Shown: in pieces, positions 18,463 to 35,857 of the stretch
Layout of the letters: each line of letters begins with the position of its first letter
How positions within the stretch are numbered: position 1 is the stretch's first letter
Virus record (IMG/VR): IMGVR_UViG_3300025585_000077
Coordinates: 1 to 41,181 of that record
Source of the DNA: a virus
Reading direction: 5' to 3' (one strand)
DNA: 41,181 nt
Notes under the pieces: model-generated
Databases searched by the model: none
Told to the model about the DNA's origin: nothing
Seen by the model: only the letters and a program-made list of their open reading frames with translations
Made by a program: the position numbers and the translations under genes

Positions 18463-18885
18463 TTATATTACTTTCCTCAAAATATCATAGCGAATTGGGT
18501 GTTTCAGGGTACGCAATGCTTTGGCTTCCATCTGCCTAATGCGCTCCTTTGATAAGTCAAACATATGTCCAATTTCTTCTAATGTCATAGCATCAGAAAC
18601 ATCAATTCCAAAACGTAGCTTTAATACTATTGCTTTCTTGGGGTCCAACGTGCTAAGCGCTTGTTTTACAACCCTACATAATTCAATAGTTGATAAAGCC
18701 TTTTCTGGGTCTACGTATTCTTTGTCTAATGGCTCATCAATAGGAAGTTCTGGCATGTCTTCGTCACGTAGATAACCGTATGTGTAGTACGCTTTTCTTA
18801 GTTCGTAACTTGCACCAACGAGAGTACCATAAGGGAGAGTACGTCCTTTATATACTTTACCGTACGCATTTAGACGCCTTTTCAT
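18463..18885 (-). CDS. Sigma-70 region 4 protein without region 2
   Basis: In this 140-aa protein residues about 70-130 match region 4 of primary sigma factors closely: LDPKKAIVLKLRFGID, then TLEEIGHMFDLSKERIRQME with the HTH at 101-121, ending KALRTLKHP. Region 4 contacts the -35 element and the RNA polymerase flap. No region 2, the -10 binding part, is present in the 69 N-terminal residues. The protein may redirect host polymerase by replacing region 4, or act as an anti-sigma or activator. It overlaps the upstream gene by ATGA in the P25 unit, so it is made early and could switch on late transcription. Confidence 0.82.
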   Translation of the reverse strand: MKRRLNAYGKVYKGRTLPYGTLVGASYELRKAYYTYGYLRDEDMPELPIDEPLDKEYVDPEKALSTIELCRVVKQALSTLDPKKAIVLKLRFGIDVSDAMTLEEIGHMFDLSKERIRQMEAKALRTLKHPIRYDILRKVI

Positions 18886-25520: not shown

Positions 25521-25548
25521 ATCATAGCACATCGTTTTACTTTGTCAA
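25521..25548 (-). promoter_or_regulatory. Sigma-70 promoter P25
   Basis: On the minus strand TTGACA (25548-25543), a 16-bp spacer and TATGAT (25526-25521). It drives the winged-helix, VRR-NUC and PolA genes and probably the whole micro-gene and helicase block to 15355. A terminator just upstream (25559-25583) insulates it from the P31 transcript. The leader shares TCCATCTGATGCTCC (plus-strand reading) with the P15 leader. Confidence 0.85.
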
Positions 25549-25558
25549 GTGCAAGACG

Positions 25559-25583
25559 AAAAAAAGCCCGCTTAAAGCGGGCT
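25559..25583 (-). terminator. Rho-independent terminator of the MoxR/VWA unit
   Basis: On the minus strand AGCCCGC - TTTAA - GCGGGCT forms a 7-bp stem followed by TTTTTTT. It lies 46 bases after the DUF3310-like gene stop and ends the transcript that begins at P31. Confidence 0.92.
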
Positions 25584-25600
25584 AAACTATTAGGATTTAC

Positions 25601-25615
25601 CCTAACATTGTTAGG
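25601..25615. repeat. 15-bp palindrome copy 1 (CCTAACATTGTTAGG)
   Basis: Perfect consensus copy in the intergenic gap between the DUF3310-like gene stop and the P31-unit terminator, about 53 bp upstream of the P25 -35 box. Confidence 0.9.
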
Positions 25616-25629
25616 TGGTCGGCATCAGC

Positions 25630-26130
25630 TTACGTCCTTGCTTCAACCTTACTCAACTCACGCTCAAGATACCACTTGGCTTTGCGCAGGTTCTCCACCC
25701 TATCGCCTTTGTGATCGGCGCGGGTGATGTACTTGATGACATTGCCCAAGTGATAGTTTAAGCCTTTCGCCTCAATGAAGTCGATAGTCTCTACCCCACC
25801 TACCTTGTAATGGGCAGGGTGGTTCACCGGATCGGGCGTAGGCTCAAACATCTCAATAGCGGATGCGGCAGTAGTGATAGCGTTCCAGTAGTCGGCATCT
25901 CTCTTTGCATCTTTGGCTTTACGTTCCAACGCTTTATAGGTCTTGGTACGTTTTACGTCTGGTACGCCCCCTTCAGCTAGTGTTTTCTTGTTCATATGCC
26001 ACCGCACCCCATAGACGTACTGCTTGGTAACGCCGTACTCTTTAGCTACATCAGCTACGCTGACTTTGGGGTTCTTCTGCATAAATGCACGTACTTTTGC
26101 CGCCGTGCTACGACCTTTACGCTTGCTCAT
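25630..26130 (-). CDS. HTH plus DUF3310-like (SaV/nucleotide-kinase-like) fusion protein
   Basis: In this 166-aa protein residues 8-45 form a helix-turn-helix with VSVADVAKEYGVTKQYVYGV. The C-terminal 70 residues start DPVNHPAHYKVGG and continue IEAKGLNYHLGNVIKYITR and NLRKAKWYLERE, the signature of DUF3310 proteins, some of which have been linked to T7 gp1.7-type nucleotide kinases. The HTH suggests that the protein also binds DNA. It is the last gene of the P31 unit and overlaps the RHH-like gene by 14 bases. The domain call is firm; the enzyme activity is not shown. Confidence 0.85.
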   Translation of the reverse strand: MSKRKGRSTAAKVRAFMQKNPKVSVADVAKEYGVTKQYVYGVRWHMNKKTLAEGGVPDVKRTKTYKALERKAKDAKRDADYWNAITTAASAIEMFEPTPDPVNHPAHYKVGGVETIDFIEAKGLNYHLGNVIKYITRADHKGDRVENLRKAKWYLERELSKVEART

Positions 26131-26335
26131 TACTAACTCCTTTGGTTTGGTTGATTACATACTCGGTAAGAATTTCCCTCATCTTGGCTTGCTTTGTGTA
26201 CGCATGGTGGGTGTTGAAATAATCCATCACCTCCTTTGGTATACGCAAGCTCGTGCAGAAGAGTGCGGGTTTCTTACCAAGTCCGCGCCCTTTGCGTTTC
26301 TTCTCAGGTTTCAAAAATTCTATCCCTGTTGTCAT
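26117..26335 (-). CDS. Ribbon-helix-helix-like small protein, 72 aa
   Basis: A basic N-terminus (KKRKGRGLGKKP) leads into ALFCTSLRIPKEVMDYFNTH and AKMREILTEYV. The beta strand CTSLRIP followed by two helices is the Arc/MetJ ribbon-helix-helix pattern used by small phage repressors, which bind palindromic DNA as dimers. The gene lies inside the zone that carries the repeated 15-bp palindrome and so is one candidate for the protein that binds it. This link is inference only. Confidence 0.62.
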   Translation of the reverse strand: MTTGIEFLKPEKKRKGRGLGKKPALFCTSLRIPKEVMDYFNTHHAYTKQAKMREILTEYVINQTKGVSNEQA

Positions 26336-26348
26336 AACTAACCTCCTT

Positions 26349-26561
26349 TCATCCGTTATCCCTTACAAGATAGATATTCAACCAAGCTAGCAGTGCAGGT
26401 TTGGCAGTGGGTACTTCAACAAGTTGTGGCTTGTCTACGTTAAACTTTTCGTGCTCTACACTTAGTTCTTTGTAGATTCGCTTTGCATCTGCTTGCGTAC
26501 CCGCCCACATTAAGCAGGAACCGTGGTCTTTGCTGTGATAGTTGATTCGGTATAGCTTCAT
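26349..26561 (-). CDS. Small phage protein, 70 aa
   Basis: The start MKLYRINYHSKDHG at 26561 is preferred because GAGGAG precedes it and it overlaps the upstream stop by ATGA. The pattern KLYRINY..., then TQADAKRIYKEL, resembles small beta-alpha-beta phage proteins that occur in pairs with the upstream 54-aa type. No cysteines or membrane helix are present. The function is unknown. Confidence 0.55.
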   Translation of the reverse strand: MKLYRINYHSKDHGSCLMWAGTQADAKRIYKELSVEHEKFNVDKPQLVEVPTAKPALLAWLNIYLVRDNG

Positions 26562-26722
26562 TTCATCTCCTCTATGCTTTCTACCGACCAATTTGCGTAG
26601 CCAGTGTCCATGCCGTCTTTCTCCATCTCATCCCACGCTATCTCTTCTGCTTCTTCAAGAGAGCTAGCCTCAACGTTGTATGTCACCCAACTCTCCCTCT
26701 TAAATTCTACTTCGTACTTCAT
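26558..26722 (-). CDS. Small acidic beta-alpha protein, 54 aa
   Basis: The ATG at 26722 gives MKYEVEFKRESWVTYNVEAS and an acidic helix (LEEAEEIAWDEMEKDG). The longer open frame has no good start signal. It overlaps both neighbours by ATGA (26719-26722 and 26558-26561). The small fold V-E-A-x-x-x-E-E-A-E-x-x-A is common among phage and plasmid proteins of unknown role. Confidence 0.6.
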   Translation of the reverse strand: MKYEVEFKRESWVTYNVEASSLEEAEEIAWDEMEKDGMDTGYANWSVESIEEMK

Positions 26723-27564
26723 TTCGGTTCTTCCTCCTCGGTAAGGATAACAAAGGTCTCGCTGTTCACTCGGCAACCTACGTCTGTGATGGTGTGTTCA
26801 TCATCCACCAGCTTCAGCATACCGATCTTGCTTCTCATGCTGAGAGGGAGCGCATTATCATCTAAAATGTCAACCTTGTCACCTATCTGCACGATGTACT
26901 TACCATCTACTCTGACTACTACCGCAGTCTTACCGTTGTCGAATTTGTCTTTAATGCTTTCTATGGTCAGCATTTCCGACTGAGTTTCGGCTACCTTGGT
27001 TTGTAGGTGCGACTTACCTAACAATGTTAGGTGCGATGAGAACGCCGCTTGTACTGTCGCATCTTTATTAGCAAAGGTTAGAAGTTCCTGCTCTAGTGTA
27101 TGAGCAGCACCGTTGTATGCGCGTGATTTGCCCCATACTTGCTCGCTTAACGTCTTGCCAACTTGCTTGCGTCCTTCCTCTAGTGCCTCTTGCGTACTCT
27201 TACGCCCGAACATCTTCTTTACCGCCGCTACTGCTTTTGCACGGTCTTGGGTGCGATAGCCACCCCTACGCTCGCGTGTTTTAGCTATGCGAGGGTTCTC
27301 GATTTCTACGCAGTAGTCCCCACGGTAGTAGCTAGTAGTAATAGTGCCAAGTAATTCACCATCTTGTCTGACCTCAAACGTATCGGCGTTTTGTTGGTAG
27401 TCTGCACTACTCACCACAAACATCCACGTTGGCTTGTCGTATGCTAGCGTATAGATAACGTCACTGAGAATAGTACGACTGCACTGCTGTTTGCACATCC
27501 CGCTTTGCTGGTACTTCTCATTAAAGACTACGTTAGCTAGATTAAAAGGGTTTCCAATACTCAT
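26719..27564 (-). CDS. Hypothetical protein of the MoxR/VWA unit, 281 aa
   Basis: The start MSIGNPFNL at 27564 follows AAGGAGTAACGAA. The protein has an N-terminal domain with several Cys residues (MCKQQCSRTI), a beta-rich part (TFEVRQDGELLGTITTSYY), a basic helical middle (RRGGYRTQDRAKAVAAVKKMFG) and an acidic end (ILTEEEEPK). It contains palindrome copy 2 in frame HLTLLG. It is transcribed with MoxR, the VWA protein and the 284-aa gene. The family is not recognised; co-operon logic suggests a substrate or adaptor for the ATPase. Confidence 0.5.
   Translation of the reverse strand: MSIGNPFNLANVVFNEKYQQSGMCKQQCSRTILSDVIYTLAYDKPTWMFVVSSADYQQNADTFEVRQDGELLGTITTSYYRGDYCVEIENPRIAKTRERRGGYRTQDRAKAVAAVKKMFGRKSTQEALEEGRKQVGKTLSEQVWGKSRAYNGAAHTLEQELLTFANKDATVQAAFSSHLTLLGKSHLQTKVAETQSEMLTIESIKDKFDNGKTAVVVRVDGKYIVQIGDKVDILDDNALPLSMRSKIGMLKLVDDEHTITDVGCRVNSETFVILTEEEEPK
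27017..27031. repeat. 15-bp palindrome copy 2 (CCTAACAATGTTAGG)
   Basis: Perfect consensus copy inside the 281-aa gene, read there in the frame CTA-ACA-TTG-TTA (Leu-Thr-Leu-Leu). Confidence 0.9.
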
Positions 27565-27578
27565 TTCGTTACTCCTTA

Positions 27579-28433
27579 TTACCACTCAAACTTACCCAAG
27601 ATGTTGTCCACCTTGGACTTCAACTGCTTGCGCACTTCCGCATCATCCTTGATCGTCTCAATGTTTGCGCCTAACATTGTTACCTCTACCTGTCGCCGCG
27701 CTTCCTCCAACTGCGGGTCATTGGTTACATTCAGCTTGGTTAACAACGCACACAATTCCAACGGATTGGATACTAGCGTATCGTGATACCGCTTCTTACT
27801 GTCGTCACCGTCCGTATCCTCCAACTTCTTGGAAGTGTCCACTAGAATCTTGTGCAGTCGCTCCCACGGCTCACGCACTGCCTCGGCTAGCTTCTCGGTC
27901 TGCTGCTTGGTGAACTCCTCGCGCAATTCCTCTATGTCCGTAAGGGGTACATCAAGTCGAAAGTCACCCGCCTCTGGTACGGGCTTAACCGTACGTCGGA
28001 AGCCAAACTTCAAGCGAACTTCTTCTATATCTGGGTAGTCCTCTGCCTTATACAACCCCTTCAATGCTTGGGGTGCTTCGGCGACTAGTCGCGGGTATTC
28101 ATTGAAGAAGTTATCGCACATCATGTTGAACGTCTGTTCGTACGTATTCATAACCTGCTTGTACTCCATGAACAACTTGGTCGGCAATAGTCGCTCGCCC
28201 TTGTCTGCCCACGGTAGGGTGTGCTGATTGTGGTACAGGCGAACTCGCGCCGCCAACTTCTCTATGTCTTTACGTAGGCTCGTACCCGCAAACAGATTCT
28301 TCTTGGTCTGCGATGCACCGTGCACCGCCCCTGCGTCTGCGTTCACCTTGTCGGTGATTTCGCGGTCAACCTTCGATGCGGGCCAAACACTGATGTTCAG
28401 TTCGACTAATACTGCTGATGCGCTAATACTCAT
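27579..28433 (-). CDS. DUF3150-like protein of a MoxR-VWA module, 284 aa
   Basis: It begins MSISASAVLVELNISVWPASK, close to the start pattern of DUF3150 proteins (hydrophobic strand, N-I-S/T-x-W). Long helices follow (KDIEKLAARVRLYHNQH, EYKQVMNTYEQTFNMMCDNFF and ELREEFTKQQTEKLAEAV). DUF3150 genes are known in phages and plasmids next to MoxR ATPases and VWA proteins, as here. It probably forms the third component of a chaperone-like complex. Copy 3 of the palindrome (variant end) lies in frame VTMLGAN. The DUF name is from memory and needs a profile search. Confidence 0.55.
   Translation of the reverse strand: MSISASAVLVELNISVWPASKVDREITDKVNADAGAVHGASQTKKNLFAGTSLRKDIEKLAARVRLYHNQHTLPWADKGERLLPTKLFMEYKQVMNTYEQTFNMMCDNFFNEYPRLVAEAPQALKGLYKAEDYPDIEEVRLKFGFRRTVKPVPEAGDFRLDVPLTDIEELREEFTKQQTEKLAEAVREPWERLHKILVDTSKKLEDTDGDDSKKRYHDTLVSNPLELCALLTKLNVTNDPQLEEARRQVEVTMLGANIETIKDDAEVRKQLKSKVDNILGKFEW
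27670..27684. repeat. 15-bp palindrome copy 3 (variant right end, TTACC)
   Basis: CCTAACATTGTTACC inside the 284-aa gene, with the core TAACATTGTTA intact. It is read as GTA-ACA-ATG-TTA-GGC (Val-Thr-Met-Leu-Gly). Confidence 0.8.
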
Positions 28434-28434
28434 T

Positions 28435-28683
28435 TCATTTCTCCTTGGTTGGTTTACCTGCTAACTTTGCCATCTGATACAGGCTTTCGCTGAGAGTCCT
28501 CAACGTGAACCCTTCTTCGTTTGGATACACATGGTGAGAATGTTCGACCCCACCTGCTGACCTTTCCTCTTTCGTAAGGTACTTACGCTCGTATATTTCT
28601 GCCTTATCTAATACGCTAGCAACTGCTAGCGCTTGCTCTGTGGTTACAACATAACTTTTGTAACCCATTTCGATTACCATCAT
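28435..28683 (-). CDS. Small hypothetical protein, 82 aa
   Basis: The ATG at 28683 is taken because AAGGAG sits seven bases upstream; the longer frame overlaps the VWA gene. The protein starts MMVIEMGYKSYVVTTEQALA, with a mostly helical body and a basic tail (KLAGKPTKEK). It contains HSHHVYPNEEG, a histidine group that could bind metal. The spacing to the next gene is one base. It is co-transcribed with MoxR and VWA. The function is unknown. Confidence 0.55.
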   Translation of the reverse strand: MMVIEMGYKSYVVTTEQALAVASVLDKAEIYERKYLTKEERSAGGVEHSHHVYPNEEGFTLRTLSESLYQMAKLAGKPTKEK

Positions 28684-28693
28684 TTTGCTCTCC

Positions 28694-29932
28694 TTAGTCT
28701 TTAAGATGAACTGTCTTACCGTTCGGGGCAACAACATCATTACCTCCAACAATCGTCCAGAGTACAGGGGCAGTCCAATCGTTGCCCCAATCGTCTCCAA
28801 CGTACCCATCGGTAAGAACAATGATGCACTCGGGGACAATTCGTTTCTCCTTCAGATATGCAGATACACAGCTAGGTGAAGTGCCACCACCGCCGCGTGG
28901 TTTGGTTGAGCTAACAATGTTAGGTACATCGCTCTCCGAATACTCCTCGTGTGCCGCCACTGCTGAGTCCCAATAGATCAAGTCCACTTGGCGTGGCTTA
29001 ACCTCTTCTGCGATACACCTAACTTCTGTTAGGAACTCGGACAACTCTTTGCCACCCACACTACCGGATGTGTCGATAGCAATAGCCAAGTGACCTACAC
29101 GCTCACCAATCAGGCTCGGCATGTAAGTGCCGGTAGATAGGAACCTACGGTTAACCCTACGCCAAGATGACGTATCTTTTGCGTTGCATGTAGCTTTCAC
29201 AAACTCCCGCAACACTTCGCGCCAGTCTACCTTAGGCTCAAGTAGGTCTAGCAAATCACGATCCACGCTTCCTGCACCAGTTCCCGCGATCTTCTGATGC
29301 GCCATTACCCCCTGACGCAATGCTTGGTCAATGTCGCGCTCTAGTTCTTTCTTATCCTCATCGGATAGTTCCTGCGCCCCATCCCAATCGTGGTCGTCGA
29401 ATCCACCTTCGCCACCTTCGCCACCTTCGCCACCTTCGCCACCTTCGCCACCTTCACCGCCGTCGCTATTCTCCTGCTCCTCTTTGAGAATATCGAACAC
29501 TTGCTTGGCGTTCATCCCCCGAAACCGTTCATCCACCAACCCCATCGGCTTACCTTTGAACAGCCCACTCTTGATCTTGGGCATTGCAATGATCTGCTCG
29601 ACAGGATCAATGTCCTTCAGCTTGAGGTTAATTACATAGTCGCAAGCGGCGTTAGCCAACTTGTGATCTTCATCGTGCAGTTTCTTCCAAGTCGTCAGAT
29701 GCCTGAACGCCTTGTGCAGATTCTCGTGAAGCACTACAAAATTTAACTCTGATTCTTTCAGGTCAGCGACAAACTTGCGCCCATACGATTCATCCCTACC
29801 ATTGGTACACGCAGTAGGAATGTCATCCACTACGCTAGTACGCCCAACCATCAATATGCCAGACCACAATGCAAACTTCGGGTTACGCATCAGGCTGATC
29901 TTGGCTTTCTGTACTCGTCTTTCCTCTAACAT
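28694..29932 (-). CDS. Metallopeptidase-like plus VWA domain protein (DUF2201-type)
   Basis: This 412-aa protein has an N-terminal domain with VLHENLHKAFRH: the HENLH at residues 69-73 is an HExxH metal-binding signature. A low-complexity GGE linker spans about 157-178. The C-terminal VWA domain has the MIDAS motif DTSGS (D287, S289, S291), Thr351 (GGGGTS) and LTDG near 373-376. This architecture matches the VWA-like/putative metallopeptidase proteins that work with MoxR ATPases, and the MoxR gene is directly upstream. Its ATG at 29932 lies in the centre of palindrome copy 5, with AAGGAG before it. It probably acts as a substrate-binding partner of the ATPase. Confidence 0.85.
   Translation of the reverse strand: MLEERRVQKAKISLMRNPKFALWSGILMVGRTSVVDDIPTACTNGRDESYGRKFVADLKESELNFVVLHENLHKAFRHLTTWKKLHDEDHKLANAACDYVINLKLKDIDPVEQIIAMPKIKSGLFKGKPMGLVDERFRGMNAKQVFDILKEEQENSDGGEGGEGGEGGEGGEGGEGGFDDHDWDGAQELSDEDKKELERDIDQALRQGVMAHQKIAGTGAGSVDRDLLDLLEPKVDWREVLREFVKATCNAKDTSSWRRVNRRFLSTGTYMPSLIGERVGHLAIAIDTSGSVGGKELSEFLTEVRCIAEEVKPRQVDLIYWDSAVAAHEEYSESDVPNIVSSTKPRGGGGTSPSCVSAYLKEKRIVPECIIVLTDGYVGDDWGNDWTAPVLWTIVGGNDVVAPNGKTVHLKD
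28910..28924. repeat. 15-bp palindrome copy 4 (GCTAACAATGTTAGG)
   Basis: Inside the VWA domain coding sequence, read CCT-AAC-ATT-GTT-AGC (Pro-Asn-Ile-Val-Ser), a frame different from copies 2 and 3. A looser 16-bp relative (CCTAACTTCTGTTAGG) lies at 29019-29034. Confidence 0.82.
29403..29456 (-). repeat. 9-bp tandem repeat encoding a Gly-Gly-Glu linker
   Basis: Plus-strand unit CCACCTTCG is repeated five times perfectly, with a sixth unit differing by one base. It encodes repeated Gly-Glu-Gly in the VWA protein between the metallopeptidase-like and VWA parts. Perfect 9-bp repeats can gain or lose units by slippage without a frameshift, so linker length may vary between isolates. Confidence 0.9.
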
Positions 29933-29939
29933 TGTTAGC
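29925..29939. repeat. 15-bp palindrome copy 5 over the VWA start codon
   Basis: TCTAACATTGTTAGC. On the gene strand its central ATG is the VWA start codon, and AAGGAG immediately precedes the palindrome, so a protein bound here could also affect translation-coupled expression. Confidence 0.82.
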
Positions 29940-29957
29940 TCCTTCGTTGGTAGTTAA

Positions 29958-31022
29958 TCACAGCAGGTCTTGATTCTTCGCAACCCAGTCGGCAAACGCT
30001 TTGCAACTGAACGCAATGCTCTGCTTGCTTGGGGTCTTGGCGATGTTGATAGCGAACACCGCTTGCCACTCGGCATCAAACCGTTCAAGGTATTCCATGA
30101 ATGGGGTAATGGTCTGTTTGTCGATACGCGCAATCGCACCGAACACCACGATGGCACACGCGCCTGGGCTTGTGGGTATGCTCGTATGCTTGGGGTCTTT
30201 GATTGTTGCTTCCCATGTGGGCAACTGATCGCTGAACTCAATGTACGCTTGCATATCACGCGAACCTGCTTCGCCAATAGCTCCGGTCAATGCGGCAATC
30301 ACCGTGTCGGAGTCCAACTGCTTGCGAGTCCTAACAATGTTAGATGCGGTTTCCAGAGAACGTGGTGATACGAACGCCGCTTGTGGCTTGCGTGGGTTGT
30401 AGATGTACGGGTTGTCACCCTGCGCGGCATCGGTGTAGCTTGCGAGCACATGGGGGAAACGATTCACCCACGCGATCACCTCGGCTTCAAGCCCTTTGTT
30501 CAACGCCCACTCAATCCACTGCTCGGCATCGGGTTTCTGAATAGTCACAGGAACCAGTCGGTTGCGGCTATGTGCCTTGAGCGAGTCACCCACTCCGTCA
30601 GTAGTCAAATTGCCGGTAAGAAAAACAATCGTCTGATCGTTCAACGATAAGTCGCCGAGTCGCGGGTTCGCCTTCTCCAACATGGGGTGCAGCATATTCT
30701 TCACAGGGTCTGCACCCTTGGTAAACTCATCCAACATGATGACCAACGGTTTGCCTTCATGCACTTTGAACCGAGCGTTCGGATAGTAGCGGGTGGTCTT
30801 GGTATCGTGGTCGATCACCGGCATCGCAATGTCGCCCAAGTCCATATTGGGTACATCAATATACGCATGGTCATAACCGAGCGAGTCGGCAATGTTCTTG
30901 AGCAGGGATGACTTGCCAATCCCAGGCTCGCCTTGTAACAGGAACCGAGTCTCAGGGTTGGACTTGATGAGGTTTGCGGCTTGCTTGAGCGTGATGCTCT
31001 TGCCAAAGTTAATTTCTGACAT
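29958..31022 (-). CDS. MoxR-family AAA+ ATPase
   Basis: In this 354-aa protein the start MSEINFGKSI at 31022 follows AGGAG by eight bases. Walker A is GEPGIGKS (31-38), Walker B LVIMLDEF (93-100), sensor 1 FLTGN (134-138), and HSRNR (151-155) supplies the arginine finger region. MoxR ATPases are chaperones that assemble or activate protein complexes with VWA partners, and here such a partner is the next gene. It is the first gene after P31. It contains palindrome copy 6. In a phage it may remodel a virion or replication complex, or counter a host defence; the target is unknown. Confidence 0.9.
   Translation of the reverse strand: MSEINFGKSITLKQAANLIKSNPETRFLLQGEPGIGKSSLLKNIADSLGYDHAYIDVPNMDLGDIAMPVIDHDTKTTRYYPNARFKVHEGKPLVIMLDEFTKGADPVKNMLHPMLEKANPRLGDLSLNDQTIVFLTGNLTTDGVGDSLKAHSRNRLVPVTIQKPDAEQWIEWALNKGLEAEVIAWVNRFPHVLASYTDAAQGDNPYIYNPRKPQAAFVSPRSLETASNIVRTRKQLDSDTVIAALTGAIGEAGSRDMQAYIEFSDQLPTWEATIKDPKHTSIPTSPGACAIVVFGAIARIDKQTITPFMEYLERFDAEWQAVFAINIAKTPSKQSIAFSCKAFADWVAKNQDLL
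30330..30344. repeat. 15-bp palindrome copy 6 (CCTAACAATGTTAGA)
   Basis: Inside the MoxR gene, read TCT-AAC-ATT-GTT-AGG (Ser-Asn-Ile-Val-Arg). Confidence 0.85.
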
Positions 31023-31068
31023 TTCTAACACTCCTAATAGATCAAACACAAATTAAGTTATCTAGCCA

Positions 31069-31083
31069 TCTAACATTGTTAGG
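31069..31083. repeat. 15-bp palindrome copy 7 in the P31 leader
   Basis: TCTAACATTGTTAGG, 31-45 bases downstream of the predicted P31 start and ahead of the MoxR ribosome site. A bound protein here would block an elongating polymerase. Confidence 0.88.
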
Positions 31084-31120
31084 GCGGCTGACGATAGTCA
31101 AAATCCAACCTAACCCTTTA

Positions 31121-31149
31121 ATTATACCACAAAATTACACTAAATGCAA
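31121..31149 (-). promoter_or_regulatory. Promoter P31 of the MoxR/VWA unit
   Basis: On the minus strand TTGCAT (31149-31144), 17-bp spacer, TGTGG then TATAAT (31126-31121), with TGG giving an extended -10. The block from the upstream dyad to the -10 is a near copy of P33. Confidence 0.88.
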
Positions 31150-31154
31150 GTGAT

Positions 31155-31174
31155 TTAGTCTCGCCCAAGACTAA
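31155..31174. promoter_or_regulatory. Dyad TTAGTCT-N6-AGACTAA upstream of P31
   Basis: A perfect 7-bp inverted repeat ends five bases before the -35 of P31. The same dyad sits at the same distance from P33. It overlaps the stop codon of the 353-aa gene. The position just upstream of -35 suits an activator site; no T-run follows, so it is not an obvious terminator. Confidence 0.7.
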
Positions 31175-32232
31175 TTGCCCCCTTCCTCTTTGTTGACCCA
31201 CCCATCGTATTTGTGCGTAGGCACTTGCCCCTGCTTGAGCTTCACACGCTCAAACGCCTCGTCACTATGCAGTTTCAGTATGACCTCCTCAAAAAACTTA
31301 GTCGGTTGGCTCGGCGATAAGAAGTGCACATTGTCCGGTGTTAGTGACCACACCCCCTCGTGCCACGATTTGTTCTTCGGAGCACACGCAATAAGCGCCG
31401 CTTTGTACCACTTCTGCGAGTCGTTGCTCAGCACCAAGAATAGGTAGTCGGACACATCCTCCCGATAGTGCTTCTCGCTTTTATCCCGCAGGTTGTAGCT
31501 TGTCGGCATCCTAAACACTTGGGGCGTGGGTTGGTTACGCCTAAAGAATCGATTGTCCCTACACCGATAGGTCTGAGCATAGGTTTGGAACGAACCATCC
31601 TGATTCTTCGGTGCATCCTCCACTCGTTCGGGAAACGCCTCGACATACTCGGATATGGGTATGTAAATCACCGGATTCTCGCCCTCTTCCCCTTGCTCGG
31701 TGCGCAGGGATACGAACCCTTTGAGGTAGTCGGCAAACGCTTTGTACCTAGCCCTAACATTGTTAGCACCCTTACGATTGATGCGCCAGTCGTGGTACTC
31801 TTTGATTGTCAGCAGTTCCCACTTGTTGTCACTCCACCGCACCTTCAGTTCCTCGCCATAGTTCAGCGCGTACTTGCCCCCATTTATGGTTAGGTTGGTA
31901 CGGCTTAACCTACCGTCCGTCGGTATACCAAGCACCCACTCAATCACTTGATGCGCCAAGCTAGAACCCCACTTGGTCGCTCGCTTGATAGTTATAGTGT
32001 CATCAGCGTGGTATGTTATAAACGCCCCAGACGCCCATCTGCGTCCGTAGTACACAAGGACATCATCTGACCCACTTACCATTTCGATGGAATACTTATC
32101 GTGATCCCTTCGAGCACCGAACGGGCGAGTATTCGTATTCCTGATCGGCTTGGTTTTATCGTGGATTTCCTTAGCCTTGGCATAGGTTCGCACCCGCCTA
32201 GGTAGTTTGTAAATCGTACCGCAGTAACTCAT
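31171..32232 (-). CDS. Large hypothetical phage protein, 353 aa
   Basis: The start MSYCGTIYKLPRRVRTY at 32232 is chosen because it overlaps the upstream micro-gene stop as TAATG. The sequence is basic and Tyr/Trp-rich, with beta-type stretches (DDVLVYYGRRWASGAFITYH, TITIKRATKWG) and a linker containing EQGEEGENPV. No catalytic motif is obvious. It is the last gene of the P33 unit and contains palindrome copy 8 in frame ANNVRAR. The composition suggests a nucleic acid-binding beta-rich protein, but the family is unknown to me. Confidence 0.6.
   Translation of the reverse strand: MSYCGTIYKLPRRVRTYAKAKEIHDKTKPIRNTNTRPFGARRDHDKYSIEMVSGSDDVLVYYGRRWASGAFITYHADDTITIKRATKWGSSLAHQVIEWVLGIPTDGRLSRTNLTINGGKYALNYGEELKVRWSDNKWELLTIKEYHDWRINRKGANNVRARYKAFADYLKGFVSLRTEQGEEGENPVIYIPISEYVEAFPERVEDAPKNQDGSFQTYAQTYRCRDNRFFRRNQPTPQVFRMPTSYNLRDKSEKHYREDVSDYLFLVLSNDSQKWYKAALIACAPKNKSWHEGVWSLTPDNVHFLSPSQPTKFFEEVILKLHSDEAFERVKLKQGQVPTHKYDGWVNKEEGGN
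31753..31767. repeat. 15-bp palindrome copy 8 (CCTAACATTGTTAGC)
   Basis: Inside the 353-aa gene, read GCT-AAC-AAT-GTT-AGG (Ala-Asn-Asn-Val-Arg). Confidence 0.85.
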
Positions 32233-32327
32233 TATCCAGCCCTCCAAAAAAGTACATCTAACAGAAACACAATGATGGCAAGTAGGAACACTACCCTCTC
32301 CACCTTCTCATATACGGTTAAGTTCAT
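32232..32327 (-). CDS. 31-aa transmembrane micro-peptide
   Basis: The frame reads MNLTVYEKVERVVFLLAIIV and ends FLLDVLFWRAG, one hydrophobic helix after a short polar start. AGGAG lies six bases before the ATG, and the stop overlaps the next start (TAATG), so it is well placed for translation. Its end overlaps the gene at 31171-32232. It would insert in the inner membrane; the role is unknown. Confidence 0.55.
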   Translation of the reverse strand: MNLTVYEKVERVVFLLAIIVFLLDVLFWRAG

Positions 32328-32590
32328 TTCGTACTCCTGAAAAACTCATACAGTTCGCGTTGCAAATTCTCCATTTCTTGCGCAGTCATCGGCTCGTACC
32401 CGCTGTTGACTACTTGCTCCTCCATATCTAACCGCTTGATGTAGTCGGCAGTCCGCACAGACCTAACATTGTTAGGTATCTTTTCGTACCCCTTGTTTGT
32501 GTGCTTGCCCGCGTTACGCTTGGGGTTGGCAATCATGTCGCGCACGACTGGATTCCTTTGGTTTAGGTTTCGCTTCGGTCTGGTTTTCAT
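32324..32590 (-). CDS. Small basic protein, 88 aa
   Basis: The start MKTRPKRNLNQRNPVVRDM at 32590 follows AGGAGAGTACGAA. The first half is strongly basic and asparagine-rich (NPKRNAGKHTNKGYEK), the second an acidic amphipathic helix (MTAQEMENLQRELYEFF). It resembles small nucleic-acid-binding phage proteins. It includes palindrome copy 9 in frame PNNVRS. The stop overlaps the next start by ATGA. No named family is recognised. Confidence 0.58.
   Translation of the reverse strand: MKTRPKRNLNQRNPVVRDMIANPKRNAGKHTNKGYEKIPNNVRSVRTADYIKRLDMEEQVVNSGYEPMTAQEMENLQRELYEFFRSTK
32462..32476. repeat. 15-bp palindrome copy 9 (CCTAACATTGTTAGG)
   Basis: Perfect copy inside the 88-aa gene, read CCT-AAC-AAT-GTT-AGG (Pro-Asn-Asn-Val-Arg). 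Confidence 0.9.
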
Positions 32591-32603
32591 TTCGTACTCT
32601 CCT

Positions 32604-32810
32604 TTAATCAAGCGTTACTACAACCCCTGCACCGCATTTGGTACAAGTGCCTACTGGGTCTGGGATGCGGTCTTGATCGTCCAACTCGGCAACCACTTCG
32701 ACAAGCCGCCCCTTGGAATCTATTTGCCATACTTCCGTACCCTCTACGGTCACATTCACTTCAAATGTGGTGTTGCCACACGCACATTGGTTTTTGATTT
32801 GGTTAGTCAT
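32604..32810 (-). CDS. Zinc-ribbon protein, 68 aa
   Basis: The ATG at 32810 is chosen for AAGGAG seven bases upstream; the longer open frame has no good start. The sequence holds CACG near residues 8-11 and CTKC near 56-59, a four-cysteine zinc ribbon framing an acidic beta-rich middle (TFEVNVTVEGTEVWQI). Such ribbons bind nucleic acid or RNA polymerase. It overlaps the upstream gene by eight bases and is part of the P33 unit. Confidence 0.65.
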   Translation of the reverse strand: MTNQIKNQCACGNTTFEVNVTVEGTEVWQIDSKGRLVEVVAELDDQDRIPDPVGTCTKCGAGVVVTLD

Positions 32811-32964
32811 TTTTAGCTCCTTGGTCAATCCATCTTTCCAAGCGTTCGATACAGTCCTCAACAGACTCGACTGCATCGGCAGGGTTGCCTTCCGTTAGAT
32901 CGTACAGGATGCCGTTGAGTTGCTCCCATACTACTTGTATATCACCCATGACTTCATTATTCAT
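32803..32964 (-). CDS. Small acidic helical protein, 53 aa
   Basis: This short frame reads MNNEVMGDIQVVWEQLNGIL and ends ERWIDQGAKND, mostly one or two acidic helices. The ATG at 32964 has AAGGAGAGTACGAA in front, the same leader as 32590 and a near match at 32327. It fills the space between two clear genes of the P33 unit. The function is unknown. Confidence 0.58.
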   Translation of the reverse strand: MNNEVMGDIQVVWEQLNGILYDLTEGNPADAVESVEDCIERLERWIDQGAKND

Positions 32965-32976
32965 TTCGTACTCTCC

Positions 32977-33225
32977 TTAGGTTCTCAGGTTTTTCTGGTT
33001 GGTCTGCTTGAGCGTGACAGGTGCACTCTCGTTGCTGACATACATATAACCGCCTTTGCCGTACTCTTGGATAATGCACCATGATTTGCGGTCGGCTCGG
33101 GCGGCTTCTTCACCGCAGAATAGGCAGAGTCGGTATCCCCTTGCCCATCGTTCAATGTGCACATCGTCACCGCACTCTCGGCACGGTTTCCAGTCTTGGT
33201 CTGCATCTAACATTGTTAGGCTCAT
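32977..33225 (-). CDS. Conserved phage zinc protein, 82 aa, first gene of P33
   Basis: The start MSLTMLDADQDWKPCREC at 33225 follows AAGGAG. It has PCRECGD and YRLCLFCGEEAA, giving CxxC-x(n)-CxxC for a zinc site, then SWCIIQEYGKGGYMYV and a C-terminal TLKQTNQKNLR. The SWCI-x-x-YGKG and T-x-x-TNQKN-LR features are ones I recall from widespread small phage proteins of unknown function. Codons 2-7 lie inside palindrome copy 10. Confidence 0.72.
   Translation of the reverse strand: MSLTMLDADQDWKPCRECGDDVHIERWARGYRLCLFCGEEAARADRKSWCIIQEYGKGGYMYVSNESAPVTLKQTNQKNLRT
33206..33220. repeat. 15-bp palindrome copy 10 at the first codons of the P33 unit
   Basis: TCTAACATTGTTAGG, read AGC-CTA-ACA-ATG-TTA-GAT (Ser-Leu-Thr-Met-Leu-Asp), about 71-85 bases downstream of the P33 start site. 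Confidence 0.88.
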
Positions 33226-33297
33226 TTGGTCGGCTCCTTCGGTTGGTTGGATTTGTAGCACGGGCAGGGTTAATTCCTAGCTTTGCGCTACTCTTAT

Positions 33298-33326
33298 ATT
33301 ATACCACAAAGTTACACAAAAGTCAA
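33298..33326 (-). promoter_or_regulatory. Promoter P33
   Basis: On the minus strand TTGACT (33326-33321), 17-bp spacer, TGTGG then TATAAT (33303-33298). It drives the six-gene unit ending at 31171. Confidence 0.9.
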
Positions 33327-33331
33327 GTGAT

Positions 33332-33351
33332 TTAGTCTTGGGCGAGACTAA
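33332..33351. promoter_or_regulatory. Dyad TTAGTCT-N6-AGACTAA upstream of P33
   Basis: The same 7-bp inverted repeat as at 31155-31174, again five bases before the -35. The two loops are reverse complements of each other (CGCCCA and TGGGCG as read on the plus strand). Confidence 0.72.
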
Positions 33352-33743
33352 ATGTAGCTAAGCGGGGGCGGGGGTAGGGGTGCAGCAGGGGTGGGGGTGG
33401 AGGGGGCGCAGTGTTACATTTGAATGTGACAAAGTTACGGGGATGTTATAAAATTTTTTTAAGAATGTAACAAAAGAAAAGTCAATAAAATCAATGAGTT
33501 AGAAGCGAAAAATTGTGTAATGTTATAAAGTTATGAAATTTTGATTATTATATATAGGGTTCCATTTTTGCTGCGTGGTACGAATTGCACATGCTGACCT
33601 GCTCAACCCCTCAATTTCCTGAGGTGTCATTTCGTAAAAAAGTGTAACATATAACATTAGGCGTTTTTTCCTTTAGAATCAACAACTTATAATGTTACAT
33701 TCACATTATGAAACATAACAAAGCCCAAAAACATAACAGAAAA
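33352..33743. other. Non-coding G-tract and AT-rich block, candidate origin or regulatory region
   Basis: No gene is visible in this stretch. Bases 33364-33406 hold six runs of four or five G on the plus strand (quadruplex-type). From 33410 to 33743 the DNA is AT-rich, with about ten copies of TGTTACA/TGTTATA-like words or their complements (TATAACA, TGTAACA). G-tracts beside AT-rich iteron-like DNA are compatible with a replication origin or a control region. No experiment or skew calculation supports it here. Confidence 0.45.
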
Positions 33744-33758
33744 TATAACATTGTTAGG
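33744..33758. repeat. 15-bp palindrome copy 11 (TATAACATTGTTAGG)
   Basis: Intergenic, 30 bases upstream of the plus-strand promoter at 33788; the left end deviates from the consensus. Confidence 0.8.
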
Positions 33759-33787
33759 TGCTGACTAAAAATAATTTGAAAGAGTGC

Positions 33788-33816
33788 TTGACAAGCGGGA
33801 AAAAAGGTGATATGCT
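33788..33816 (+). promoter_or_regulatory. Plus-strand consensus promoter with dyad operator
   Basis: TTGACA (33788-33793), 17-bp spacer, TATGCT (33811-33816). A 9-bp perfect dyad, ATATGCTGT - GT - ACAGCATAT (33810-33829), covers the -10 and the start region, a classic repressor position. It is the only strong plus-strand promoter inside the otherwise leftward region. Confidence 0.8.
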
Positions 33817-33854
33817 GTGTACAGCATATCAGTTAAGAGTAGCACCAAAACCTG

Positions 33855-33884
33855 AGTCCTACCGCCGCGTGGGGAACTGGTACA
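33855..33884 (+). repeat. 30-nt repeat, copy a (unit A)
   Basis: Starts AGTCCTACCGCCGCGTGG and ends GGAACTGGTACA; it differs from copies b and c at two positions. It is preceded by the plus-strand promoter and lies left of the unit A terminator. Confidence 0.85.
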
Positions 33885-33903
33885 CTAAATCTCCAGACCT
33901 CAA

Positions 33904-33918
33904 CCTAACAATGTTAGG
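33904..33918. repeat. 15-bp palindrome copy 12 (CCTAACAATGTTAGG)
   Basis: Perfect copy between the 30-nt repeat and the unit A terminator; the counterpart in unit B is copy 15. Confidence 0.9.
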
Positions 33919-33940
33919 TTTCGTAACAAAGCACAGACGC

Positions 33941-33964
33941 AAAAAAGCCCGCACTTGGCGGGCT
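33941..33964 (-). terminator. Terminator of the 163-aa gene (unit A)
   Basis: On the minus strand AGCCCGC - CAAGT - GCGGGCT followed by TTTTT. It ends the P34 transcript. Confidence 0.9.
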
Positions 33965-33970
33965 TAGTGT

Positions 33971-33990
33971 TACTAGGGTTTCCCCTAGTA
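33971..33990. other. Post-stop hairpin TACTAGGG-TTTC-CCCTAGTA (unit A)
   Basis: An 8-bp perfect stem with a four-base loop lies ten bases after the stop of the 163-aa gene. Its counterpart at 35148-35167 keeps GGG-TTTC-CCC but changes both arms in a compensating way. On the plus strand it is followed by a T-rich tail and may act as a weak terminator. Confidence 0.7.
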
Positions 33991-33999
33991 TTGTTACAT

Positions 34000-34491
34000 T
34001 TACTTGATTGTCGCTAGGTCAATACCCATTGCGTTCAATGCCGATCCAATGAATGTCTGGGCGTCCCTTTGTTTGGTGCTCAGGCTTTCTTCACGACCAC
34101 AGGCTTTCCAGAGTGCCGACAGTTCTTCGACCAGACGCAGATCAAGTGACCGAGTGTGCCGAGCGTTTCCTTCGCCTTCGGACGCACTAGCTTCGGTTGG
34201 CTCGCCTTCAATGTGGGCTTGTGCATACTTGCGTACCCGCGCCCAGACTGTTGACGGGTTAGAGTGCTTCGCCGCCTTCAACACTTCGTAGAGTGCTTTC
34301 TTTTCGGCATGGACTGGCTTTGCCACTTCGCTAGTATCGCTATGTTCGACCAAGTACCACTCGGACGGTAACACTTCGCAAAGTGCTTCGGCATACCTAC
34401 GCTCGGCTCCGTACTGGCGTACCACAGCTTCGGCGACTTCAACACGCAAGGCGGTAAGGTCTACGGACACAGGGATAATGACTTCGTTCAT
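34000..34491 (-). CDS. Unknown phage protein, 163 aa, paralogue of 35175-35690
   Basis: The ATG at 34491 has GGAG seven bases upstream. The protein starts MNEVIIPVSVDLTALRVEVAE. It has an internal HAEKKALYEVLK then SNPSTVWARVRKYA, and near the end GNARHTRSLDLRLVEELSALW, with a variable acidic linker (EPTEASASEGEG) between. It aligns along its full length with the 171-aa protein of unit B (roughly 60 percent identical by eye). ARHTRS and PSTVWARVRKY suggest DNA-binding helices, but I know no family name. It is driven by P34, with palindromes on both sides of the promoter, so it is a candidate palindrome-binding protein. Confidence 0.75.
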   Translation of the reverse strand: MNEVIIPVSVDLTALRVEVAEAVVRQYGAERRYAEALCEVLPSEWYLVEHSDTSEVAKPVHAEKKALYEVLKAAKHSNPSTVWARVRKYAQAHIEGEPTEASASEGEGNARHTRSLDLRLVEELSALWKACGREESLSTKQRDAQTFIGSALNAMGIDLATIK

Positions 34492-34515
34492 GCTAATACT
34501 CCAATATGCTAACTA

Positions 34516-34530
34516 TCTAACAATGTTAGG
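34516..34530. repeat. 15-bp palindrome copy 13 in the P34 leader
   Basis: TCTAACAATGTTAGG, about 42-56 bases downstream of the P34 start and just before the ribosome site of the 163-aa gene. Confidence 0.88.
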
Positions 34531-34578
34531 TAAACCCGCCTAACTCAGTATGCCGACAATCTTTGTTGGCATGAGTAT

Positions 34579-34607
34579 ATTATACCACATTTTAGTGGTA
34601 ACTTCAA
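34579..34607 (-). promoter_or_regulatory. Promoter P34
   Basis: On the minus strand TTGAAG (34607-34602), 17-bp spacer, TGTGG then TATAAT (34584-34579). It shares the extended -10 with P31, P33 and P35. Upstream sequence TTTTTATTTACGC is shared with P35. Confidence 0.88.
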
Positions 34608-34631
34608 GTTCTTGCGTAAATAAAAATTCAA

Positions 34632-34646
34632 CCTAACATTGTTAGG
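34632..34646. repeat. 15-bp palindrome copy 14 upstream of P34
   Basis: Perfect CCTAACATTGTTAGG, about 25 bases upstream of the P34 -35 box; copy 17 takes the same place at P35. Confidence 0.9.
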
Positions 34647-34653
34647 CAACGCA

Positions 34654-34683
34654 AGTCCTACCGCCGCATAGGGAACTGGTACA
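34654..34683 (+). repeat. 30-nt repeat, copy b
   Basis: Starts AGTCCTACCGCCGCATAGG and ends GGGAACTGGTACA; identical to copy c and separated from it by 37 bases. Confidence 0.9.
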
Positions 34684-34720
34684 CGCGAGGCCGACACCAT
34701 TGGACATCACCGAGGAGCTT

Positions 34721-34750
34721 AGTCCTACCGCCGCATAGGGAACTGGTACA
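34721..34750 (+). repeat. 30-nt repeat, copy c
   Basis: Identical to copy b at 34654-34683. In copy a the same bases read as SYRRVGNWYT in one frame, but b and c are 67 bases apart, so they cannot share a frame; the repeat is conserved as DNA or RNA. Confidence 0.9.
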
Positions 34751-34778
34751 TGAGGGCGGGACGAAAGCAAAGCACAAG

Positions 34779-34793
34779 CCTAACAATGTTAGG
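34779..34793. repeat. 15-bp palindrome copy 15 (CCTAACAATGTTAGG)
   Basis: Perfect copy between the 30-nt repeat c and the unit B terminator, matching copy 12 in unit A. Confidence 0.9.
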
Positions 34794-34816
34794 CGTAATA
34801 TAAAATACGCAAGCGC

Positions 34817-34840
34817 AAAAAAACCCCGCACATGGCGGGG
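34817..34840 (-). terminator. Terminator of unit B
   Basis: On the minus strand CCCCGC - CATGT - GCGGGG followed by TTTTTTT. It ends the P35 transcript after the two micro-genes. Confidence 0.92.
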
Positions 34841-34863
34841 GTTGGTGATGGTGGTGGAGTTGC

Positions 34864-34971
34864 CTATCTGGAAATAGGTGAATACTCTCGGCGCTCGGCT
34901 ACTGCAATGAGGGTTTCAACCCTCACCCAATAGCGAATCAAGTTGATTTTGCCAACGGTGAGGGTTTTCAT
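34864..34971 (-). CDS. Micro-protein, 35 aa
   Basis: The frame reads MKTLTVGKINLIRYWVRVET and ends YSPISR; basic, with one beta-like and one helical part. Its ATG overlaps the upstream stop (TAATG), the main sign of translation. It lies 23 bases before the terminator. The DNA also contains an internal dyad, GAGGGTT - TC - AACCCTC, near 34911. The function is unknown, and it could be a chance frame. Confidence 0.4.
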   Translation of the reverse strand: MKTLTVGKINLIRYWVRVETLIAVAERREYSPISR

Positions 34972-35144
34972 TAGTTGCCTTTCGAGAATAGGCTACCAAG
35001 TGCATAGAATGTAGATATTGAACCCACAATCAGCATCCCTGCCGCCATCAGCATACCCTCAGCCATCACCGCGTTGAGCGCGATCCAGAGCATTATGCTT
35101 CCAATTATTGCGGTTAAACCCAAGAATAGATTTTCCATTTTCAT
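34971..35144 (-). CDS. Two-helix small membrane protein, 57 aa
   Basis: The frame reads MKMENLFLGLTAIIGSIMLW, then IALNAVMAEGMLMAAGMLIV and ends SLFSKGN. Two hydrophobic helices flank a short loop with Asn and Glu, a hairpin topology like small holin-type or exclusion proteins. It follows the 171-aa gene and the hairpin at 35148-35167, which sits where a ribosome site would be and may limit its translation. The family is unknown. Confidence 0.6.
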   Translation of the reverse strand: MKMENLFLGLTAIIGSIMLWIALNAVMAEGMLMAAGMLIVGSISTFYALGSLFSKGN

Positions 35145-35147
35145 ACA

Positions 35148-35167
35148 GGGGAGGGTTTCCCCTCCCC
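35148..35167. other. Post-stop hairpin GGGGAGGG-TTTC-CCCTCCCC (unit B)
   Basis: An 8-bp GC-rich perfect stem seven bases after the stop of the 171-aa gene, in the same place and with the same loop as 33971-33990 but with different arms. It has no T-run on the gene strand and may act as an attenuator or an mRNA end stabiliser. Confidence 0.72.
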
Positions 35168-35174
35168 GCTCCGA

Positions 35175-35690
35175 TTAGTTGAGGGTTGCAGTATCCACGC
35201 CGAGAGCGTTCAGAGCGCTACCGATATGGGTTTGTGCTTGGCGCTCTTTGTCCGAAAGGGAATCAGCGCGCTTGGTAGCCTTCCACAAGGAACCCAATTC
35301 CTCAATCAGGCGCAGATTCAGCGAGCGGGTATGGCGAGCATTACCGGAACCCTCACCCTCACCGATGGATTCACCGTTGGCAACTTTTTCGGCGGCTTCT
35401 GCCTTGGCGACCATATCAGCCGCATACTTGCGAACCCGCGCCCACACCGTGGAGGGGTTGGTATGGTTTGCCTTTTTCAGCACCTCATACAATGCCTTTT
35501 TCTCGGTATGCACTGGTTTATCGGCGTCAGCCGTGGAATTGTGCTCCACCTTGAACCAGAACGCGGGGAGGGTTGCGTTCAGGAATTCAGCATACCGGCG
35601 CTCAGCGCCATACTGACGGACACCGGCTTCCGCAACATCGTTGCGCAGGGATTCGAGGGATACCTCGACAGGGATAATTACTTCTGACAT
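35175..35690 (-). CDS. Unknown phage protein, 171 aa, paralogue of 34000-34491
   Basis: The start MSEVIIPVEVSLESLRNDVAE at 35690 matches the paralogue start and has GGAG seven bases upstream; the longer open frame only reads the leader. Shared blocks are YGAERRYAE, HTEKKALYEVLK, NPSTVWARVRKYA, GNARHTRSLNLRLIEELG and the C-terminal GSALNALGVD. The linker between is longer and Ala/Glu-rich. It is the first gene of the leftward region, so probably among the earliest expressed. The function is unknown. Confidence 0.75.
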   Translation of the reverse strand: MSEVIIPVEVSLESLRNDVAEAGVRQYGAERRYAEFLNATLPAFWFKVEHNSTADADKPVHTEKKALYEVLKKANHTNPSTVWARVRKYAADMVAKAEAAEKVANGESIGEGEGSGNARHTRSLNLRLIEELGSLWKATKRADSLSDKERQAQTHIGSALNALGVDTATLN

Positions 35691-35702
35691 TTTCAAACTC
35701 CA

Positions 35703-35717
35703 TCTAACATTGTTAGG
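35703..35717. repeat. 15-bp palindrome copy 16 in the P35 leader
   Basis: TCTAACATTGTTAGG, just upstream of the ribosome site of the 171-aa gene, about 56-70 bases downstream of the P35 start. Confidence 0.88.
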
Positions 35718-35779
35718 TTCGGGGAATCCACTACCTAACCGAGTATGCAATCAGAACCATTTTCCGTTTGCATGCTTAT

Positions 35780-35808
35780 ATTATACCACAATTTGATGCT
35801 AGATTCAA
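35780..35808 (-). promoter_or_regulatory. Promoter P35
   Basis: On the minus strand TTGAAT (35808-35803), 17-bp spacer, TGTGG then TATAAT (35785-35780). It drives unit B. The rest of 35691-36107 has no gene and holds two palindromes, C-tracts and the plus-strand promoter at 36048. Confidence 0.9.
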
Positions 35809-35842
35809 GGTTGAGCGTAAATAAAAATTCAAGCGGGGATAG

Positions 35843-35857
35843 CCTAACAGTGTTAGG
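35843..35857. repeat. 15-bp palindrome copy 17 (CCTAACAGTGTTAGG)
   Basis: Upstream of P35 as copy 14 is of P34; the centre is AG instead of AW, the only copy with this change. Confidence 0.82.

Follow-up and report, generated by a model that had tools for sequence, protein, structure and literature searches.

In the viral record IMGVR_UViG_3300025585_000077 of IMG/VR (positions 1-41,181; these 41,181 bases are called the window throughout), two paralogous genes, A and B, lie in tandem, each accompanied by palindromes, a promoter, a terminator and direct repeats. This raises the question of what the palindromes are for and why the unit was doubled. The original prediction saw here a whole regulatory unit duplicated in tandem, with proteins and sites acting as one system, perhaps an immunity or copy-control circuit. 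It missed that the palindromes are not limited to the two units, but extend 10 kb along an early operon. We consider it probable that A and B encode autoregulated, probably dimeric, site-specific repressors that silence this one operon via dispersed roadblock-like operators. The duplication is a local doubling of this putative regulator, real but secondary to the operon-long array.

The palindrome, [R]CCTAACANTGTTAGG[Y], is a strict 15-bp sequence recurring about every 0.7 kb through the early gene cluster. The window contains 17 copies of its core, TAACAnTGTTA, all of them within 25,603-35,855, and sequences with up to three mismatches to CCTAACANTGTTAGG number 21, compared to 1.7 expected. 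Downstream of the tandem units, the array comprises the following features (palindromes, which carry no strand, were located by motif scan; promoter and terminator were identified from the sequence):

33744-33758: array palindrome with two mismatches in the outer bases
33298-33326, minus strand: third early promoter, TTGACT-17-TATAAT
33206-33220: array palindrome
32462-32476: array palindrome inside the open reading frame (ORF) 32324-32611
31753-31767: array palindrome inside ORF 31171-32247
31069-31083: array palindrome upstream of the ATPase gene
30330-30344: array palindrome inside the ATPase gene, codons SNIVR (kept in 42/47 orthologs; first of 348 windows)
29925-29939: array palindrome at the start of the VWA gene
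28910-28924: array palindrome inside the VWA gene (kept in 45/53 orthologs; first of 382 windows)
27670-27684: array palindrome inside ORF 27579-28433, 284 aa (kept in 44/50 orthologs; first of 280 windows)
27017-27031: array palindrome inside ORF 26719-27585
25601-25615: last array palindrome
25565-25583, minus strand: terminator closing the array-covered transcription unit

The last site abuts this strong terminator, just past which lies a site-free promoter (TTGACA-16-TATGAT, 25521-25548). The array therefore covers one transcription unit, from the first early promoter to the terminator.

The same arrangement is found in relatives. The gene A family and the palindromes co-occurred in 63 of 63 loci, with sites near -150, -25, and +540 relative to the gene and then every ~0.7 kb; these continued downstream for up to 10 kb, and none was located farther upstream than about -215. 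Contigs of 60 kb held 12-21 sites per record, mostly within about 10 kb. Gaps between downstream sites averaged 741 bp (coefficient of variation 0.50), and 1.7% of them were shorter than 200 bp, compared to 24% expected for random placement. A terminator closed the array in one of the two relatives' loci assessable for it. More than half of the downstream sites in relatives (162 of 270) were situated inside ORFs of at least 90 aa.

Sites inside genes are strictly conserved at the DNA level. The ATPase, VWA, and 284-aa genes each have their most codon-conserved window at the four codons that hold the site, and most orthologs keep the site at the same codons (counts in the list above). The 11-bp core is nearly absolute in the arrays, with 588 perfect sites versus 35 with one mismatch. 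These 588 sites, from 65 genomes, have a consensus whose symmetry extends to ±8; non-pairing combinations are common at ±6 and ±7, and 95% of the sites have an A or a T at the center (336/222 on the transcribed strand). Symmetric preferences combined with non-pairing positions point to a DNA dyad, fit two half-sites read by a dimer, and speak against an RNA hairpin.

The sites fall into spacing classes, which change together with gene A. Gap-1 sites have one central base (CCTAACANTGTTAGG), gap-2 sites are 1 bp longer (CTAACANNTGTTAG), and gap-0 sites have no central base; counts from scans for exact CCTAACANTGTTAGG are to be read as "at least" and are biased to gap-1. Phages of the gap-2 class, which are without a canonical gene A, were brought in by searching a separate direct-repeat element. 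They use CTAACANNTGTTAG and carry, at the position of gene A, a gene 24-26% identical to it (profile cross-hit E = 2.5 × 10−7). Loci with canonical gene A comprised 112 gap-1, one gap-0, and no gap-2 arrays, and those with the divergent gene nine gap-2 and two mixed arrays (Fisher p = 4 × 10−12, a statistic that ignores shared ancestry). Identity to the window in gap-2 phages is 61-85% for the ATPase, 60-79% for the VWA protein, and 60-81% for the 284-aa ORF, no different from the range seen in gap-1 phages; the gap-1 sites inside genes have disappeared there, with the exception of one in L079. On the simplest reading, the gene A product reads the sites, and a change of reader altered or released all of them. 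This joint swapping strongly supports the earlier proposal that proteins and sites would form one system. The gap-0 class accounts for 15 of 17 sites in one 68-kb record (G008, loci L129 and L182). Its array spans both ends of the contig, suggesting a circularly permuted complete genome.

Genes A and B appear to define a previously undescribed phage protein family. For gene A, no Pfam or PHROG family scored above chance, no PDB sequence matched, and Foldseek returned no match for the full model (PDB, BFVD) or for its N-domain (PDB). The predicted model is all helical (predicted local distance difference test, pLDDT, 83; N-domain 87). Its N-domain has three helices, among them a helix-turn-helix-like pair (57-73/79-95), and is followed by a disordered linker and then by a helical hairpin at the C-terminus. 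The most conserved segment is HSNPSTVWARVRKY, and where helix 79-95 starts, invariant residues form the cluster H-x-N-P-S-T-x-W-A. Judging from the model, helix 79-95 may be the recognition helix, and the C-terminal hairpin may dimerize.

In relatives, the two sites flanking the gene A promoter have their centers at -65 to -80 and at +38 to +71, beyond the stretch normally covered by RNA polymerase. They are spaced 108-142 bp apart, and no helical phasing of the pair was found. Elongation roadblocks together with autoregulation are therefore favored over occlusion or phased looping. Under this model, the A and B proteins would read a 13-17-bp dyad, RCCTAACA-N-TGTTAGGY (predicted target CCTAACAATGTTAGG). 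Sites about -70 and +50 from the transcription start would shut off the regulator's own gene once its product accumulates, and the regularly spaced sites over the following 10 kb, often within genes, would allow the same protein to block elongation along the early operon. Such a symmetric, stoperator-like picket fence would turn early genes off in the infected cell, perhaps also in co-infecting relatives of the same site class.

Several observations weigh against the repressor model. Two loci with the divergent gene A (L113 and L122) have mixed sites, and L079 and L129 each retain one in-gene gap-1 site in the ATPase gene. The swap classes hold related phages, and their counts are not independent. 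Furthermore, 41 gap-1 loci show no gene A, most of them being fragments that start downstream of its expected position. An activator, too, could make use of the upstream site near -70. No lysogeny gene was found to explain the specificity classes, tyrosine integrase (PF00589) being detected in 0 of 15 records (the window and 14 long relatives, which may be incomplete; serine integrases were not searched for). Finally, as no similar solved or viral fold was detected, the case for DNA binding rests on conservation and co-evolution.

Possibly, albeit tentatively, the array also serves as a heteroimmunity-like system without lysogeny in an apparently strictly lytic phage group. Regulator and in-gene operators would switch specificity together (gap 0, 1, 2), infected cells could silence the early genes of superinfecting phages of their own class, and a new class could evolve by way of a tandemly duplicated regulator unit. 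The original immunity or copy-control idea is borne out only in part. The specificity classes resemble immunity groups, but ParA (PF13614), like tyrosine integrase, was found in 0 of the 15 records, which may be incomplete (serine integrases not searched for); thus, classical lysogeny is not supported. As the sites span a 10-kb early operon, an early-gene silencer also fits better than a local copy-control circuit.

A dispersed centromere or DNA-organizing array of the ParB/KorB kind, in which the protein would load at the palindromes, spread or slide along the DNA, and compact or shield the early region, repression being secondary, seems unlikely. It would be in keeping with the strict 11-bp core, the regular ~0.7-kb spacing, and a dyad of 13 bp whose central base is free, the format of KorB operators. 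KorB is also able to act at a distance of up to 1.5 kb (PMC11790492), and a KorB-like sliding or spreading mode is possible for the present proteins. However, the array is confined to one transcription unit, neither ParA nor tyrosine integrase was found in the 15 records, and a Pfam search with 45 family members gave no ParB domain at E ≤ 1; PHROG gave a single weak hint to ParB (E = 0.076).

There is a rather small chance that the protein is instead a positive factor, either an activator or a site-loaded elongation factor, and sustains transcription of the early operon. Class I activators bind at -65 to -80, where the upstream sites lie, and the early promoters have imperfect -35 elements, but these promoters already possess an extended -10 element that matches the consensus. 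The sites at +40 to +70 and those within genes would be difficult to explain with an activator, and autoregulation through flanking sites is typical of repressors.

We regard it as very improbable that the palindromes work at the RNA level, whether as hairpins close to start codons for a translational repressor or nuclease, or as antitermination sites. Several sites do lie just ahead of ribosome-binding sites, and most are in transcribed DNA. Yet, besides the frequent non-pairing combinations, conserved sites are found hundreds of bases into ORFs, one site precedes the promoter of each unit, and the central base on the transcribed strand is either A or T. The idea that a hypothetical gene was simply duplicated in tandem together with its local operators, all other palindromes being incidental, can practically be dismissed: the duplication itself is real, but the 17 sites in one region, the excess of near-matches, the positions and codons conserved across dozens of genomes, and the coordinated spacing switch already contradict it.

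Genes A and B are transcribed right to left, and the functional order is the reverse of that given in the original prediction, whose listed elements all lie where it placed them or very near. In transcription order, a unit consists of a palindrome, an extended -10 promoter, a palindrome, the gene, a hairpin, small ORFs (unit B), a terminator, a palindrome, and one or more direct repeats (palindromes located by motif scan, direct repeats by repeat search, and promoters, hairpins, and terminators from the sequence):

35843-35857: palindrome CCTAACAGTGTTAGG upstream of the B promoter
35780-35808, minus strand: sigma-70 promoter of gene B and the early operon, TTGAAT-17-TATAAT with TG
35703-35717: palindrome between B promoter and start codon
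35175-35690, minus strand: gene B, 171-aa paralog and tree sister of A, first gene of the operon, same HTNPSTVWARVRKY segment
35148-35167, minus strand: post-stop hairpin of B, GGGGAGGGTTTCCCCTCCCC
34971-35144, minus strand: 57-aa hydrophobic ORF in the cargo slot between gene B and terminator
34864-34971, minus strand: 35-aa ORF, predicted only, from the sequence
34824-34840, minus strand: intrinsic terminator of unit B
34779-34793: palindrome past the B terminator
34721-34750, minus strand: direct repeat copy 1 after gene B (relatives have paired repeats after gene A)
34654-34683, minus strand: direct repeat copy 2 after gene B
34632-34646: palindrome upstream of the A promoter
34579-34607, minus strand: sigma-70 promoter of gene A, TTGAAG-17-TATAAT
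34516-34530: palindrome between A promoter and start codon
34000-34491, minus strand: gene A, ORF for a 163-aa putative DNA-binding regulator with 63 viral relatives
33972-33989, minus strand: post-stop hairpin of A, ACTAGGG-TTTC-CCCTAGT
33945-33965, minus strand: intrinsic terminator of unit A
33904-33918: palindrome past the A terminator
33855-33884, minus strand: single direct repeat after gene A

Nucleotide similarity between the units is not restricted to the genes (66% identity, z = 21 versus shuffles). Promoter regions are 79% identical (z = 13.8; 13.2 with palindromes masked) and reach 81% across 67 nt, and the post-gene regions are 78% identical (z = 10.8; 5.9 with palindromes masked). 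The A and B proteins are 66% identical and sisters in the gene tree (support 98/88); hence, the duplication arose in the window's own lineage. All 63 relatives found first, by profile search, have a single gene copy with the same order of elements. Two tandem units, each flanked by palindromes, also occur in a distant clade (L072, L094, L099, L112, and L131). Since these units form their own branch, tandem duplication took place at least two independent times; in both duplicated lineages, paired repeats follow the first tandem gene. The similarity outside the genes, the sister proteins, the single-unit relatives, and the second independent duplication together bear out the predicted whole-unit duplication. 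Neither outcome that would have contradicted the prediction, a lack of nucleotide similarity beyond the genes or a lack of relatives sharing the element order, was observed. The order of elements is indeed kept in both units, but it is how the gene family is normally laid out, and its retention therefore needs no special explanation. The conserved HSNPSTVWARVRKY segment hardly differs between A and B, and one-base-gap sites are retained in both units. Most likely, therefore, the duplication increases dosage or provides another autoregulated copy of unchanged DNA specificity.

The slot between gene A and its terminator holds a conserved ORF of 59-62 aa (MTQNQ...QMYASGLITLPEL...) in L003 (8058-8246), L008 (10540-10728), and L079 (reverse strand). 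The 57-aa ORF of unit B is unrelated to it and occupies the same slot, which thus appears to take variable cargo.

The direct repeats are unrelated to the palindrome. The 30-nt repeat is present in three copies in the window (0 expected), and its exact sequence had no match in viral contigs. In relatives it takes the form of a 22-30-nt repeat (CCAGTTCYCnnnGCGGCGGTAGC, or TGATAGTTCTCAG...GTGG.AGCC in other clades) with the invariant blocks GTTC, GG, and TAG, usually in two copies of constant orientation, located 85-600 bp past gene A and ahead of a non-coding, AT-rich stretch. Repeat starts are 43-242 bp apart, always after gene A, and no consistent stem was seen by eye. The repeat is possibly an origin or a binding site. 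Its similarity to a type I-F repeat of clustered regularly interspaced short palindromic repeats (CRISPR; about 20/28 positions) had suggested a CRISPR-like repeat or an RNA anti-CRISPR, a candidate rejected as the relatives diverge and the spacing is irregular. In the window, the AT-rich stretch measures about 0.5 kb (33340-33850), contains many TAACATTATAAC-like words, and lies between gene A and the next promoter. It is also present in L003, L006, and L007 and is a candidate replication origin. A hairpin, TGATATGCTGTACACAGCATATCA, at 33808-33831 recurs after gene A in L006 and L008 with loop changes. Rfam searches gave sub-threshold chance matches only.

The plus strand of the window encodes terminase, portal, and ejection protein (from 36.1 kb and 0.3-10.6 kb), and a minus-strand replication block encodes primase/helicase, helicase, exonuclease, DNA polymerase, and a sigma-factor-like protein (18463-18885), possibly for later promoters. 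The minus-strand block at 25.6-35.9 kb contains mostly unknown genes; within this early operon, a MoxR-like ATPase gene adjoins that of a DUF2201/VWA protein (28694-31049), an AAA+/VWA pair kept across the phage group at about 57-96%. By terminase, the nearest cultured phages are the podovirus-like DSL-LC04, HTVC027P, and HTVC023P (49-58% identity). Palindromes were not found in the examined genome parts of DSL-LC04 and HTVC027P, tblastn and blastn gave no matches in cultured phages, and no gene A relative was found in bacterial genomes.

The array is conserved over dozens of uncultured phage lineages and built into coding sequence, with an undescribed regulator family. The natural swap lines give direct binding predictions, and elongation-level silencing as well as the evolution of operator specificity become testable outside temperate phages. 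To our knowledge, very few systems have operon-long operator arrays. The repressor of L5 and other cluster A phages (gp71 type) has more than 20 dispersed stoperators, some at promoters and others in transcribed regions, where they are proposed to stop elongation; these are asymmetric 13-bp sites read by a monomer, oriented with transcription, and placed in short intergenic gaps genome-wide in temperate phages (PMC9283540). A small phage protein, many dispersed sites within transcribed regions, and specificity classes among relatives are common to both. In contrast, sites in the window phage are symmetric, often in genes, evenly spaced, and confined to one operon. No homolog of the L5 repressor (helix-turn-helix plus stoperator domain) was recognized among Pfam, PHROG, PDB-sequence, or fold matches, and the integrase of a temperate phage was not detected either (PF00589, 15 possibly incomplete records; serine type not searched for). 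With KorB/KorA of RK2, the system shares dispersed palindromic operators and autoregulated global silencing over distance (PMC11790492). KorB, however, is a CTPase clamp of the ParB family, partnered by ParA (IncC) and KorA, whereas no ParB domain or ParA was found here.

The phiC31 c repressor binds, as a single repressor, highly conserved inverted repeats of about 17 bp at many places in the early region, the nearest known layout. The protein appears to be different, with no Pfam or PHROG link to gene A, and phiC31 is a temperate Streptomyces phage. We know of no in-gene codon-constrained sites, regular spacing, or spacing classes there. The same 11-bp core palindrome is part of the operator TAACATTGTTA bound by the MtvA antitoxin at one plasmid promoter (PMC11826091), a single site for a toxin-antitoxin protein, and this match is probably convergence. 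The gene A/B system seems to work like L5 stoperators or KorB, yet to belong to neither family.

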